This document shows positions 21,782-26,806 of a stretch of 35,075 nucleotides of DNA, piece by piece. Each line of letters begins with the position of its first letter. Position 1 is the first letter of the stretch. The notes under the pieces were generated by a model. It was not told the origin of the DNA and searched no databases. It was given only the letters and a program-made list of their open reading frames with translations. The position numbers and the translations under genes were made by a program. Origin of the DNA: Methyloprofundus sp. (GTDB lineage Bacteria > Pseudomonadota > Gammaproteobacteria > Methylococcales > Methylomonadaceae); NCBI GenBank assembly GCA_014859465.1, contig JACUUF010000027.1, positions 1 to 35,075 on the forward strand, written 5' to 3'.

Positions 21782-22552
21782 ATGTTAATTAGAAAAGTAG
21801 CGATTGCTTTAATTTTTTGTCTGATCAGTGTTAATCTTTATGCCACAGATGCAACGCGTGAAGCGCAGTATGCTAGAGAAATTTCCGCAGGCAGTGCCAA
21901 GGACGAGGTGATTTGGCTGGGCGAACCTAATAAACGTTTCTTAGTGCTCTATAGAGAGTCGGAGCAATCAGGCTTTAAAGGAACGGCGATTTTACTGCAT
22001 CATATGGGCAGCCATCCTGATAATGACCCGCTTATTTATACGCTGAGGCGTGAATTGGCACAGCATAATTGGGCAACCTTTGCGTTACAAATGCCCTTGC
22101 GTGAGAAGGGTGCTACAGAAGCTGATTATTACCCCTTATTCCCTGAAGCAAAACAAAGAATTGACCAAGCAGCGCGCCATTTAGTTGCGCATGGCTCAGA
22201 ATCCATAGTTTTGATAGGTCACCAGCTAGGGGCTTTAATGGCATTATATGCGCAAGCGAATGAGCCGACGCAAGAAATTAAGGCACTGGTTACTATCGGC
22301 TTAAACGCGCCTGACTCAGACAGTAAAAATGCGCAAACATTCGAATTAATTAAGCAGGTTCGCATTCCATTTTTCGACATCTACGGTGAACAAGACGGCC
22401 AAGATATTGTTGACAGCGCAAGAGAAAGACGGATTTCAGCACGCAACAATAAACACTACCGTCAATTCAAATTAAACCGAGCTAGCTCGCCTTATTGGCA
22501 TGATCAAGCTGTAGTTGTTAAGCGTGTCTATGGCTGGTTAAGTCATTATTAA
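21782..22552 (+). CDS. DUF3530 alpha/beta-hydrolase-like secreted protein
   Basis: A 256-residue protein with an N-terminal signal peptide (VAIALIFCLISVNLYATDA), so it is probably periplasmic. The remainder resembles the DUF3530 family with an alpha/beta-hydrolase layout: GTAILLHHMGSHPD (oxyanion region), VLIGHQLGALMALYA at the nucleophile elbow, IYGEQDG and a late His in SPYWHDQ. The elbow reads G-H-Q-L-G, so the usual nucleophilic Ser is replaced by Gln, which is common in DUF3530 and leaves catalysis in doubt. It starts 150 bases after 6S RNA and may be transcribed separately. Confidence 0.75.
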   Translation: MLIRKVAIALIFCLISVNLYATDATREAQYAREISAGSAKDEVIWLGEPNKRFLVLYRESEQSGFKGTAILLHHMGSHPDNDPLIYTLRRELAQHNWATFALQMPLREKGATEADYYPLFPEAKQRIDQAARHLVAHGSESIVLIGHQLGALMALYAQANEPTQEIKALVTIGLNAPDSDSKNAQTFELIKQVRIPFFDIYGEQDGQDIVDSARERRISARNNKHYRQFKLNRASSPYWHDQAVVVKRVYGWLSHY

Positions 22553-22674
22553 CAGCGCCCGATAAAAGCGACTCGCCTCATTTAAATAACCCTAAAAAAT
22601 ACTGAAATATAAGCTAGCTACGTATATACTGGAAAATTTCAATCTATTCCTTGCACAGGCGCATAAGGTCAACG

Positions 22675-23844
22675 ATGAATATTCATGAGTTTCAGGCAAA
22701 ACAACTATTTAGAGACTACAAAATACCTGTTCCCGAAAGTATGGTTGTCACTTCAGCTGAGCAAGCGTTGGCAGCAGCACAAACGCTATCCGGTGATACT
22801 TTTGCAATCAAAGCACAAGTACATGCGGGGGGGCGCGGCAAAGTAGGCGGCGTTAAAATAGTTAAAACAGCCGCAGCTGCTGCTGAAGCAGCCGGCCAAA
22901 TGTTAGGCCAACGGTTAATTACACAGCAAACAACGGCCGCTGGCTTGCCGATTAATTCTGTTTTAATTGAACAGACAACGGCTATTAAGCGTGAGTTTTA
23001 TTTAAGCTTAATCATTGATCGTCATTCAGAAAAATTGTGCTTTATCGCCTCCGAAGCTGGCGGTATGGATATTGAAGCCGTTGCCGCGGAAAGTCCGGAA
23101 AAAATAATCAGCCTGTTTATTCACCCCGCCGCAGGATTGCAAGCTTATCAGTGCCGACAAATTGCCTTTGCCTTGGGCTTACAAGGTGAGCAATTGAAAA
23201 AGCTACAGCAGCTAATGACCGGCATGATGCAGCTATTTTTAGATAAAGACGCGAGCCAAATTGAAATCAATCCTTTAGTCGAATCAGAAGCAGGCGATTT
23301 ATTAGCCTTGGATGCAAAAATCAATTTTGATGACAATGCCTGCGCCTTACATCAAGATATTCTAGCGTTACGTGATACCAGCCAAGAAGATGCCAAAGAG
23401 AATAGCGCAAAACAATTTGACCTTAATTATATTACTTTAGAAGGTAATATTGGTTGTATGGTTAATGGCGCGGGATTAGCGATGGCAACGATGGATTTAG
23501 TAAAGCTGAAAGGTGGCACGCCAGCCAATTTTCTCGATGTCGGTGGCGGCACAACCACAGAAAAAGTCACCGAAGCTTTTAAATTAATCGTCTCAGATAA
23601 CAATGTCAAAGCCGTTTTAGTTAATATATTTGGCGGTATCGTGCAATGCGATGTGATTGCTAAAGGTATTTTAGGTGCATTGGCGCAAATCAACACCGAC
23701 TTGCCGGTCATTGTCCGCTTAGAAGGCACGCATGCTGAAGAAGGCCGGGCATTACTGCATAATGTTGCGCCTAATATTATCCCTGCAAAAGATTTAGATG
23801 ATGCCGCCGAACAAGCCGTTGCCCTTGCTGGAGGTGCTGCATGA
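22675..23844 (+). CDS. sucC: Succinyl-CoA synthetase beta subunit
   Basis: A 389-residue beta subunit (E. coli SucC is 388) that carries the ATP-grasp domain and the nucleotide specificity. It opens [12 protein letters not shown] and has [14 protein letters not shown] in the ATP-grasp domain, then IEINPLV, and [18 protein letters not shown] plus [14 protein letters not shown] in the C-terminal ligase domain. I chose the ATG at 22675, with AAGG eight bases upstream, over a TTG eight codons earlier. It overlaps sucD by ATGA. The N-terminus and central motifs are closer to SucC than to malate-CoA ligase MtkA, although the families are related. Confidence 0.93.
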
Positions 23845-24725
23845 GCATTTTAATTGATCAACATAGCAAAGTGATTTGCCAAGGTTTTACCGGTAAACAA
23901 GGCACTTTTCATGCGCGCCACGCTTTAGATTACGGCACGAAGTTAATTGCCGGAGTAACGCCAGGGCGCGGTGGCTCAGAGCATTTGGGTTTGCCGGTAT
24001 TTAATACCGTGCAACAGGCTTATGATGCAACCCAAGCCGATGCCAGCGTCATTTATGTGCCACCTTTTTTTGCCGCTGATGCCATTTTAGAGGCAGTGGA
24101 TGCGGGTATTAAATTAATTGTTTGTATTACCGAAGGCATTCCCGTTTTACATATGCTGCGCGTTAAAGCCGCCATGCAAGACAGCGGTGCTTTATTAATC
24201 GGCCCTAATTGCCCAGGCATTATCACGCCCGAGCAATGCAAAATTGGCATTATGCCCGGCAATATTCATCAAGTCGGTGCTATCGGCATTGTTTCACGCT
24301 CAGGTACTTTAACTTACGAAGCGGTACACCAAACGACGCAACAAGGCTTGGGGCAAAGTACCTGTGTCGGCATTGGCGGTGATCCTATTCATGGCATGAA
24401 TTTTATCGATGTTATCAGCCGATTTCAGGCCGATGACCAAACTCAAGGTATTATTATGGTCGGTGAAATTGGCGGCAGTGAAGAAGAAGAAGCAGCTGAA
24501 TATATTAAACATCATGTGACCAAGCCTGTGGTCTCTTATATTACTGGTTTGACGGCTCCAGCAGGAAAACGCATGGGTCATGCAGGCGCGATTGTCACTG
24601 GCGGTAAAGGTACCGCTGAGGGCAAAGTTAATGCGCTGAAAGCAGCCGGAGTGGAAGTCGTTAACTCGCCTTCAGTAATGGGTATAGCAATGAAGGAACA
24701 GCTACTAGCAAGGCAAAGTGCGTAA
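23841..24725 (+). CDS. sucD: Succinyl-CoA synthetase alpha subunit
   Basis: A 294-residue alpha subunit with the CoA-binding Rossmann domain ([18 protein letters not shown]) and the phospho-His site [17 protein letters not shown] with His247, matching His246 of E. coli. [20 protein letters not shown] is also family-typical. With SucC it interconverts succinyl-CoA and succinate with substrate-level phosphorylation in the TCA cycle. It is coupled to sucC by a 4-base overlap. No sdh, odhA or odhB genes are adjacent, so the pair stands alone here. Confidence 0.94.
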
Positions 24726-24775
24726 AAGAAAGCGTTATATTAACAAATAATAATAAACAACTTGAGGGAAACACC

Positions 24776-25459
24776 ATGAAAAAAACCACTAAAACTTTAA
24801 CAACACTAGGTACTGCTTTAGCATCTTCATTCGCTGCATCTGCGGTTAATGCTGAGAGCAACCCATTTGCAATGACTGAATTAAGCAGCGGCTATATGCA
24901 GCTTGCTCAAGCAGACAAAGCCGAGGAAATGAAGTGCGGCTCGACAATGAAAATGGATAAAAAAACCGAAGCGGCTTGTGGCGAAGGCAAGTGTGGCGGC
25001 ATGATGGCAAACGGCAAAATGAAAAAAGGCCTAGAGCAATCTTGTGGCGCTATGATGAAAGGCAAAGAAGGTGCTTGTGGTGATCTGCAAGAAAAAGCAT
25101 CGACTGGAAAAGCAAAGAATAAAGGCTTCACTGTTAATAAATCAGGCTGGGGCAATAAGAAAGCATCTGAAATGAAAAAAATGGACATGAGTAAAGACAT
25201 GGACATGACAGGTGAAACGAATACGGACAAAGGAATGCAAGGCATGTGCGGCGGTATGATGCAAGATGGCAAAATGAAAGAGGGCATGGAGCACAAATGT
25301 GGGGCAATGATGAAAGGTAAAGAAGGTATGTGTGGCATGGGTGACATGAAGGGCATGGATATGAAAGATGGCATGGGTGACATGAAGGGCATGGATATGA
25401 AAGGCAAAGAAGCAAGTTGCGGCGTTATGGTGACGCCTGAGCAAGCAGCTGGTAACTAA
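24776..25459 (+). CDS. Secreted Met/Cys-rich HvfA-like low-complexity protein (possible RiPP precursor)
   Basis: A 227-residue protein. Residues 1-26 form a signal peptide ending AVNA. Residues 29-46 read NPFAMTELSSGYMQLAQA, which resembles the start of the secreted low-complexity proteins (COG3767/HvfA type) that are substrates of MNIO (DUF692) enzymes. It has nine Cys (54, 68, 73, 90, 101, 158, 175, 186, 215). Cys73 lies in an EGKCG motif (70-74), where HvfA Cys are converted to oxazolone/thioamide copper ligands. A 30-residue module at 73-102 recurs at 158-187 (23 of 30 identical), joined by a Lys/Met linker. A Met-rich MGDMKGMDMK tandem repeat follows. It lies 50 bases after sucD with a strong GAGGG site. 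No MNIO or HvfC-like gene is adjacent. Copper or metal binding is inferred. Confidence 0.7.
   Translation: MKKTTKTLTTLGTALASSFAASAVNAESNPFAMTELSSGYMQLAQADKAEEMKCGSTMKMDKKTEAACGEGKCGGMMANGKMKKGLEQSCGAMMKGKEGACGDLQEKASTGKAKNKGFTVNKSGWGNKKASEMKKMDMSKDMDMTGETNTDKGMQGMCGGMMQDGKMKEGMEHKCGAMMKGKEGMCGMGDMKGMDMKDGMGDMKGMDMKGKEASCGVMVTPEQAAGN
25337..25408 (+). repeat. 36-bp tandem repeat encoding a Met-rich dodecapeptide
   Basis: Two head-to-tail 36-base units (25337-25372 and 25373-25408) encode MGDMKGMDMK plus two residues, at 188-199 and 200-211 of the Met/Cys-rich protein. They are identical for their first 30 bases and diverge only in the last two codons, so the duplication is recent. Confidence 0.85.
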
Positions 25460-25511
25460 CACTCAATACACACTTATGTTAAAGAGGGCCTTAGCAAGGC
25501 ACATTGAATAA

Positions 25512-25580
25512 AACCCGAAACTGTATTTATAGCACTGCCGGTCGTTTAAGGGCTGGCAGTGCTTCGGGTATTATTTATTG
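25512..25580 (+). terminator. Hairpin terminator candidate after the Met/Cys-rich gene
   Basis: AGCACTGCC (25531-25539) pairs with GGCAGTGCT (25555-25563), and ACCCGAA (from 25513) can extend the stem by pairing with TTCGGGT after a bulge. ATTATTTATTGTT follows. The stem is strong though the T-tract is broken. It would separate the sucCD region from hemW. Confidence 0.5.
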
Positions 25581-25657
25581 TTGACGCCTTAACTCTATTG
25601 TTGGAGCTAAGACCCTCCCACACAAAGCTCTAACCCCATCCATTCAGATATTCTCTA

Positions 25658-26806
25658 GTGCCTCAATCCTCTATTCCGCTTAGTCTCTACATTCATTTCC
25701 CGTGGTGCATACAAAAATGTCCCTATTGCGATTTTAATTCTCATAAGGCTAGCAGTACTTTGCCTGAAGATCGATATATTGAGGCTTTATTAAGTGATTT
25801 AGCGCAAGATATTGCTCAATTTGCAGAAACGCGCCCTATTCAAAGCATTTTTATGGGCGGCGGCACACCGAGTTTATTTTCTGCGCGACACATACAGCGA
25901 TTGCTCATAGGTATTCAAAAGCAACTAGCTTTTGCTGAGAATATAGAAATTACCTTGGAGGCAAATCCCGGTACTTTTGAAAGTGAAAAATTTACCGATT
26001 ATAGAGCGATAGGTATTAACCGCCTTTCTATCGGCATACAAAGTTTTCATGATCAGCATTTAAAACGCTTAGGACGTATTCATTGTGCCCAAGAAGCGCT
26101 ACGCGCAGTGGCAATTGCTCAACAAGCTGGCTTTGATAATCTTAATTTAGATTTAATGTTCGGCTTACCCGATAGCAGCGAACAAGATAGTATTGATGAT
26201 GTGGTACAAGCGATAGCTTTGCAGCCCAGCCATATATCTTTTTATCAGTTGACCTTAGAGCCGAATACTTATTTTCATAAATACCCGCCGGTATTACCTG
26301 AAGATGATGCTATTTTTAATAGCCAATTAGCTTGCCAAGACTTATTAGCGCAACACGGCTATTTGCAATATGAAATCTCCGCTTATGCACAAGCAGATAA
26401 GCCGTGTAGACACAATCTTAATTATTGGTCGTTTGGCGATTATCTAGGCATAGGAGCCGGCGCGCATGGCAAAATAACGCAAAACACGCCTGATCAGATT
26501 GTGCGCACGATGAAACCGAAGCAGCCAGAACAATATCTCCAGCAAGACAAAAGCGATAGGCTTGCCCAAGCGATAAAGAGTAATGATTTAGCACTCGAAT
26601 TTGTGATGAATAATTTGCGTTTAAAGATTGGTTTCAGTCTTGATATTTATACGCAAAGGACGGGCCTAAGTGCGCTAACATTAGAACCTGCTTTAACTCA
26701 CTGCCTGCAACAAGGCTTATTAGTTGCGCATAAGCAACATTATTTTTGCTCAGAAAAAGGCTGGTACTTTCTGGACAGTATTTTAGAAAAATTTCTTGAC
26801 TCATAA
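25658..26806 (+). CDS. hemW: HemW, radical SAM haem chaperone
   Basis: A 382-residue radical SAM protein. The cluster motif C-x3-C-x2-C is C17-C21-C24 (WCIQKCPYC), followed by FMGGGTPSLF for SAM binding. The HemW-specific HNLNYW stretch, which separates it from true coproporphyrinogen oxidase HemN, is present in PCRHNLNYWSFGDYLGIGAGAHG. Older annotation as oxygen-independent coproporphyrinogen oxidase would be wrong. The start appears to be GTG at 25658, nine codons before YIHFPWC. It is followed 15 bases later by pyrE. Confidence 0.92.
   Translation: MPQSSIPLSLYIHFPWCIQKCPYCDFNSHKASSTLPEDRYIEALLSDLAQDIAQFAETRPIQSIFMGGGTPSLFSARHIQRLLIGIQKQLAFAENIEITLEANPGTFESEKFTDYRAIGINRLSIGIQSFHDQHLKRLGRIHCAQEALRAVAIAQQAGFDNLNLDLMFGLPDSSEQDSIDDVVQAIALQPSHISFYQLTLEPNTYFHKYPPVLPEDDAIFNSQLACQDLLAQHGYLQYEISAYAQADKPCRHNLNYWSFGDYLGIGAGAHGKITQNTPDQIVRTMKPKQPEQYLQQDKSDRLAQAIKSNDLALEFVMNNLRLKIGFSLDIYTQRTGLSALTLEPALTHCLQQGLLVAHKQHYFCSEKGWYFLDSILEKFLDS

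Follow-up and report, generated by a model that had tools for sequence, protein, structure and literature searches.

The window, a 35,075-nt stretch of a Methyloprofundus sp. assembly (the window genome, G000), contains a 227-aa ORF at positions 24776-25459 of the forward strand, lying between sucD and a HemW-like radical-SAM gene per the ORF list and Pfam searches of the neighbors. A preliminary description made from the sequence had given this protein NPFAMTELSSGYM, an EGKCG motif, and nine Cys, and had named sucCD and hemW as its neighbors, all of which was borne out by the ORF translation and the Pfam results. The lineage of the window's Met-rich EGKCG-type precursor is labeled P1 here, and the features of the locus are as follows.

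22675..23844, + strand: sucC (succinyl-CoA ligase beta), upstream of P1; Pfam ATP-grasp_2 and Ligase_CoA
23841..24725, + strand: sucD (succinyl-CoA ligase alpha), 50 bp upstream of P1; Pfam
24776..25459, + strand: P1, putative Met-rich EGKCG-type MNIO substrate (precursor); ORF, orthologs, sub-threshold NF050137 match, tree
24776..24853, + strand: signal-peptide-like stretch, residues 1-26 (MKKTTKTLTT...AVNA), probable leader; by eye
24860..24898, + strand: NPFAMTELSSGYM, residues 29-41, common to MNIO-linked and unlinked precursors; leader-motif regular expression
24968..25081, + strand: Cys-Gly module 1, residues 65-102, with C68, C73, C90, and C101; alignment and Cys contexts
25238..25336, + strand: Cys-Gly module 2, residues 155-187, with C158, C175, and C186; alignment
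25337..25408, + strand: Met-rich repetitive tail, GDMKGM-like; tandem repeats 25310-25403 and 25334-25394, alignment
25409..25423, + strand: EASCG site at the C-terminus; alignment and Cys contexts
25531..25563, + strand: strong hairpin 3' of P1, followed by an A/U-rich stretch; fold of 25505-25580
25658..26806: HemW-like radical-SAM gene, downstream of P1; Pfam

Residues T10, G12, A14, A16, and A26 of the N-terminus are invariant across the 16 aligned P1 orthologs, and the signal-like stretch, judged by eye, ends in VNA. The regular expression for the leader motif matched 16/16 P1 sequences, 16/16 and 6/6 sequences of two other precursor lineages (P2 and P3, respectively), and 22 of 23 operon-encoded precursors of the family, the sole miss being a sequence truncated at a contig end. 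The first EGKCG site of module 2 is degenerate in the window protein (QGMCG) and canonical in several orthologs, which read EGKCGEGKCG or EGKCGEGMCG in the same alignment columns, and the length of the GDMKGM-like tail varies between orthologs. The AlphaFold2 model of P1 is disordered and of low confidence (mean pLDDT 43.5), with no fold. The hairpin 3' of P1 (-36.8 kcal/mol, z -8.0) is a possible transcript end; it is not among the calls of a terminator pattern scan, and no promoter or terminator pattern in 22400-25900, the sucD-P1 gap included, rose above shuffles. The hairpin and the promoter-less gap are compatible with, rather than a demonstration of, a sucC-sucD-P1 transcript.

The window protein has 34 Met among its 227 residues and, beside its one exact EGKCG, two further EGxCG sites. 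Gly follows Cys at all nine Cys sites (about 6e-8 expected from composition), and Glu stands at position -3 of Cys (ExxCG) at eight of the nine (about 1e-8 expected from composition). The 16 P1 orthologs together have 167 Cys, of which 166 precede Gly; 156 of these Cys-Gly sites have the ExxCG form, and in 30 other gammaproteobacterial precursors Glu occupies position -3 in 237/242 cases. These 30 derive from the 30 top-scoring loci, of which 28 contributed (L159 and L161 had no ORF passing the filter, and two loci contributed two each), and one of them, L175, belongs to the same order as the window genome. Several P1 sites have drifted from EGKCG. The Cys-Gly/ExxCG pattern is the register of EGKCG. 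The enzyme FonBC converts the Cys of EGKCG to 5-thiooxazole, tolerating A, R, or T at the preceding position and requiring a small residue at the following one (PMC13097082); Met or Ser precedes Cys at four of the nine window sites, neither of which we saw among the FonBC variants named there.

A Pfam profile search of P1 gave no match. Against the NCBIfam HvfA-type domain NF050137 the window protein scored 15.5 bits (E 0.011), under the 19.5-bit cut-off, while all 16 P1 orthologs matched it at E<=0.1 (best 2.6e-9) and 7/16 matched NF050188 (HvfA). In the HvfA HMM check proposed in the preliminary description, the window protein itself thus falls short of the cut-off. Because the window protein is sub-threshold, has one exact EGKCG and 8/9 ExxCG sites, and has orthologs that match at E<=0.1, P1 is best filed as a divergent relative of the EGKCG (HvfA/oxazolin/captophorin) precursors rather than as a strict member.

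A profile search of the contigs found a single MNIO (DUF692) gene in the window genome (PF05114, E 4e-107), so that an enzyme for the action in trans considered in the preliminary description is at hand. A genome devoid of DUF692 genes, named there as part of what would speak against the idea, is therefore not what the search showed. Of the companion genes expected on the model of HvfA, a DUF2063/NGO1945_C partner comes after the MNIO, and there is no DoxX gene beside it. The MNIO lies on contig C162 and P1 on contig C294, leaving the two unlinked, and the 13.7-kb MNIO contig contains neither a leader motif nor any frame with at least two ExxCG sites. The enzyme matches the solved DUF692 chain 3bww at E 3e-72 and MbnB, a distant relative, at E 1e-14, and it keeps the sequence blocks common to MNIO and 3bww, which we take to be catalytic. 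The assembly has 7% contamination; the MNIO, P1, and P2 nonetheless have the same few closest-kin genomes. Nearest to the window genome among named relatives are Methyloprofundus MAGs, Bathymodiolus gill symbionts, represented by the methanotrophic endosymbiont of B. puteoserpentis, and a Methylococcaceae MAG. PF05114 was found in 150/151 genomes of the order at >=90% completeness and in 95/96 family genomes (hand count), compared with 220/370 in the class sample.

P2, the second unlinked precursor of the window genome, is 122 aa long (L033:1450-1818, contig C255), scores above the NF050137 cut-off, and lies directly behind mgtE and before mraZ; it is present in 16/18 genomes of the genus. P3 (L137, L139-L143), a third lineage of 88-112 aa whose N-terminus resembles a lipoprotein signal (LTAGC-type), occurs at several loci in six genus genomes and was not found in the window genome. 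G001 and G005 each encode an additional MNIO accompanied by a precursor of its own (L054:2332-2694 and L055:2170-2532), which is rich in GGCNG plus GKCG motifs and lacks the usual leader motif.

Something P1-like is present in 18/18 genomes of the genus and a long ortholog in 16/18, the other two (G012 and G015) being incomplete assemblies. P1 is unlinked to the MNIO in all 16 genomes that hold it, and in 12 of them it lies directly behind sucD with gaps of 44-265 bp. Elsewhere, transposase-like ORFs separate sucD and P1 (G007), P1 lies away from sucCD (G006, G010), or only the hemW side is kept (G017), and on these arrangements we rejected strict co-expression of P1 with sucCD.

Most of the family is arranged differently. 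When one MNIO locus was taken from each of 24 family genera, an upstream Cys-Gly precursor was present in 23/24, one of these being truncated at a contig end and another lying at a distance of 605 bp. Within the genus, 15 of the 17 main MNIO loci have no precursor signature. At another, in G008, all that remains of a collapsed precursor ORF is its leader part, and at the last, in G014, an intact precursor belongs to an operon that also contains sigma factor, anti-sigma, and DoxX genes; in G011 this operon occurs with the precursor missing. In three related genomes, the sigma-antisigma-DoxX-MNIO-DUF2063 operon thus has its precursor intact (L045), collapsed (L040/L153), and missing (L042/L152), respectively. 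The orphan state of P1, which has no linkage to the MNIO as first described, reflects a derived split at the level of the genus and is no isolated oddity. Close relatives of the window genome show the route by which precursor gene and enzyme separated.

The sample of 24 genera is free of a bias that affects our public genome scan, whose patterns contained MM and whose 80 kept loci (of 175) are consequently skewed to Met-rich members; in these 80, the fetched flank held an MNIO at 52, sucD at 11, and neither at 17. Met-rich precursors, often two in tandem, were seen in freshwater MAGs (L081, L095, L096, L100, L107, L109, L124, L129), with no MNIO in the fetched flank of these loci and with apparent bamA/ompH/fabZ/lpxA genes near several of them. 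A family genome that is 98% complete, G492, has a precursor (L254:1381-1764) adjoining a sigma-factor-like gene, and no MNIO was found in it. Likewise, G012, a genus genome with 7% contamination, has P2 and yielded no MNIO.

In a precursor tree (71 sequences, 101 columns; bootstrap not fully settled), the 16 P1 rows form one clade (100/96), and its sister group (97/98) consists of two precursors encoded beside an MNIO in related genera. This placement points to common descent of P1 with MNIO-linked precursors and, with the ortholog profile matches and the Cys register, upholds the relationship to HvfA/EGKCG-type MNIO substrates suggested in the preliminary description. In an MNIO tree that did not include L233, L242, or the additional MNIOs of G001 and G005, the 17 MNIOs of the genus group as a single clade (99/98) inside the family. 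For the MNIO, dN/dS was 0.03-0.06 in nine of ten genus pairs, the tenth being saturated, and for the first 100 codons of P1 it was 0.04-0.20 in ten pairs. The genus MNIO is under strong purifying selection despite the absence of a linked precursor at most loci. An enzyme that stays constrained after losing its linked substrate needs another substrate in the same cell, and P1 and P2 are the two candidates in the window genome.

Met makes up 16.3% of the mature part of the window protein, and the median of the 16 P1 sequences (16.5%) is the highest of the groups compared. The median is 3.2% (0.6-11.5) in the 30 other gammaproteobacterial precursors, 10.7% (7.3-14.6; n=23) in the per-genus family sample, and 7.7% (2.2-9.8; n=8) in other families of the order. 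A Mann-Whitney test applied to Met content counted related sequences as independent. Met-richness is thus normal among methanotroph precursors, unlike those of other gammaproteobacteria, so that the Met density first described as unusual for the family is unusual against members outside the methanotrophs and not within them. The many MxxM-type motifs, which had also been singled out, do not exceed same-composition shuffles (MxxM 7 vs 5.2, MxM 5 vs 5.2, MM 4 vs 5.3), and we rejected an enrichment of Met spacing motifs; only Met content stands out. The window genome has a pMMO-family gene (E 3e-127), and the AMO/pMMO family was found in 23/24 sampled family genera, in all 10 further genomes that were searched in the order, and in 1/29 others. 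Since five genomes with AMO-family genes (L174, L175, L244-L246) have Met-poor precursors (0.8-4.6%), an AMO gene alone does not explain Met content, and we rejected AMO-family genes as its sufficient cause.

The explanation that we favor, with a probability of about 0.74, is that P1 is a multi-site, Met-rich EGKCG-type captophorin precursor which is modified in trans by the window genome's only MNIO-DUF2063 pair and buffers copper. The signal peptide and the NPFxMTELSSGYM segment of P1 would be recognized in the cytoplasm by this pair, encoded on another contig, which would convert the ExxCG Cys to 5-thiooxazoles. Sec would then export the modified product, which would hold copper via its heterocycles, perhaps also via its many Met, and would buffer periplasmic copper in a methanotroph running on the copper enzyme pMMO. 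Across the genus, P1 has parted from the MNIO operon and now lies behind sucCD. Cytoplasmic modification before Sec export is modeled on HvfA, whose signal peptide serves as leader (PMC13419390), and copper binding on oxazolin and fontiphorin; the proposed copper role as a whole is drawn from characterized relatives.

Modification in trans is favored by the sole MNIO and its DUF2063/NGO1945_C partner having no linked precursor, by the MNIO linkage of P1's sister precursors in a family where 23/24 genera keep precursor and MNIO together, and by the low dN/dS of the MNIO although 15/17 genus loci lack a precursor. The Cys-Gly and ExxCG counts of P1, the NF050137 and NF050188 matches of its orthologs, the tolerances described for FonBC (PMC13097082), and the pMMO gene argue in the same direction. 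It is weakened by the sub-threshold score of the window protein and the Met or Ser before Cys at 4/9 sites, by P2 (and P3 elsewhere), since P2 alone could account for retention of the MNIO, by G492 and G012 with a precursor and no MNIO found, and by the contamination of the window assembly.

P1 might also be modified in trans and have as its main task the delivery or storage of copper for pMMO, not protection from excess copper. The pMMO/AMO family in the host and in nearly all sampled family genera, the Met-rich precursors typical of methanotroph families, and the position of P1 with a central metabolic operon in 12/16 genomes all speak for such a role, which we nevertheless consider rather unlikely, as the five AMO-bearing genomes with Met-poor precursors indicate that lineage, not AMO genes, may explain Met, and the literature discusses characterized captophorins in terms of copper protection.

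We give a lower probability to P1 now being an unmodified Met/Cys copper-buffering protein, with the MNIO retained for P2 or other substrates. This alternative has been raised for additional precursors by Antoine et al. 2025 (PMC12452194), and it would suit the lack of MNIO linkage in 16/16 genomes, the sites drifted from EGKCG, and a Met content above that of every other group compared. A leader motif in 16/16 orthologs and ExxCG at 156/166 sites, however, go beyond what free thiol ligands need, and the dN/dS of the first 100 codons and the MNIO-linked sister precursors also make this alternative improbable.

That P1 is a low-complexity Met/Lys/Gly protein, HvfA-like by composition and unrelated to MNIO substrates, would fit the missing Pfam match, the sub-threshold NCBIfam match, and the disordered model, but the chance is slight, and we ruled out such a look-alike on the Cys-Gly/ExxCG register far beyond chance, the canonical EGKCGEGKCG at the same columns in orthologs, and the placement of P1 with MNIO-linked precursors.

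Among known systems, the HvfA/oxazolin system of Haemophilus influenzae resembles P1 as interpreted here in its leader-role signal peptide, its Glu-x-x-Cys-Gly sites, and its MNIO with a DUF2063-type partner (PMC13419390). P1 differs in not being linked to an MNIO, in having one exact EGKCG with the other sites degenerate, in its length of 227 aa, in a mature part that is about 16% Met, and in the lack of a DoxX gene beside the MNIO. Fontiphorin (FonABC) undergoes Cys-to-5-thiooxazole conversion on repeated 5-mers under substrate rules that suit Cys-Gly; unlike P1, FonA is encoded within its own gene cluster, and we saw no Met-rich substrates described for it (PMC13097082). Methanobactin shares with P1 the MNIO family (MbnB) and a copper-binding peptide in methanotrophs, whereas its precursors have no signal peptides (PMC12452194) and MbnB is distant from the MNIO of the window genome. 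We ruled out P1 as a methanobactin precursor given its 227 aa, its signal-like N-terminus, its lack of linkage, and the weak match of the sole MNIO to MbnB.

Stand-alone Buf_EGKCG precursors, and several precursors per MNIO/PME1 pair, were already described by Antoine et al. 2025 (PMC12452194), for whom precursor-MNIO linkage is not obligatory and who left open the modification in trans of precursors without a linked MNIO. Unlike such cases in general, the P1 lineage is resolved: sister genera have it linked, the genus has it moved to a place behind sucCD, and the enzyme locus shows one precursor collapsed and another deleted. Its modules are also longer and contain Met. In the open-access literature, five papers were listed for methanotrophs together with MNIO, and we found none on DUF692 in Methylococcales. 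The additions to prior knowledge are the resolved split of precursor and enzyme and the Met-rich methanotroph lineage.

The genus offers a natural test of modification in trans, in that most of its genomes keep a constrained MNIO-partner pair without a linked substrate and one subclade shows the intact, collapsed, and deleted precursor at the enzyme locus. More tentatively, and as a possibility that we would not yet back, gammaproteobacterial methanotrophs may have a Met-rich captophorin branch devoted to the housekeeping supply of copper to pMMO, with the MNIO-partner pair of Methyloprofundus, mussel symbionts included, acting as a general modifier of several precursors at scattered loci, including one tied to the sucCD operon. 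The near-universal MNIO of the order, together with its Met-rich substrates, may represent a little-noticed copper system of methanotrophs.
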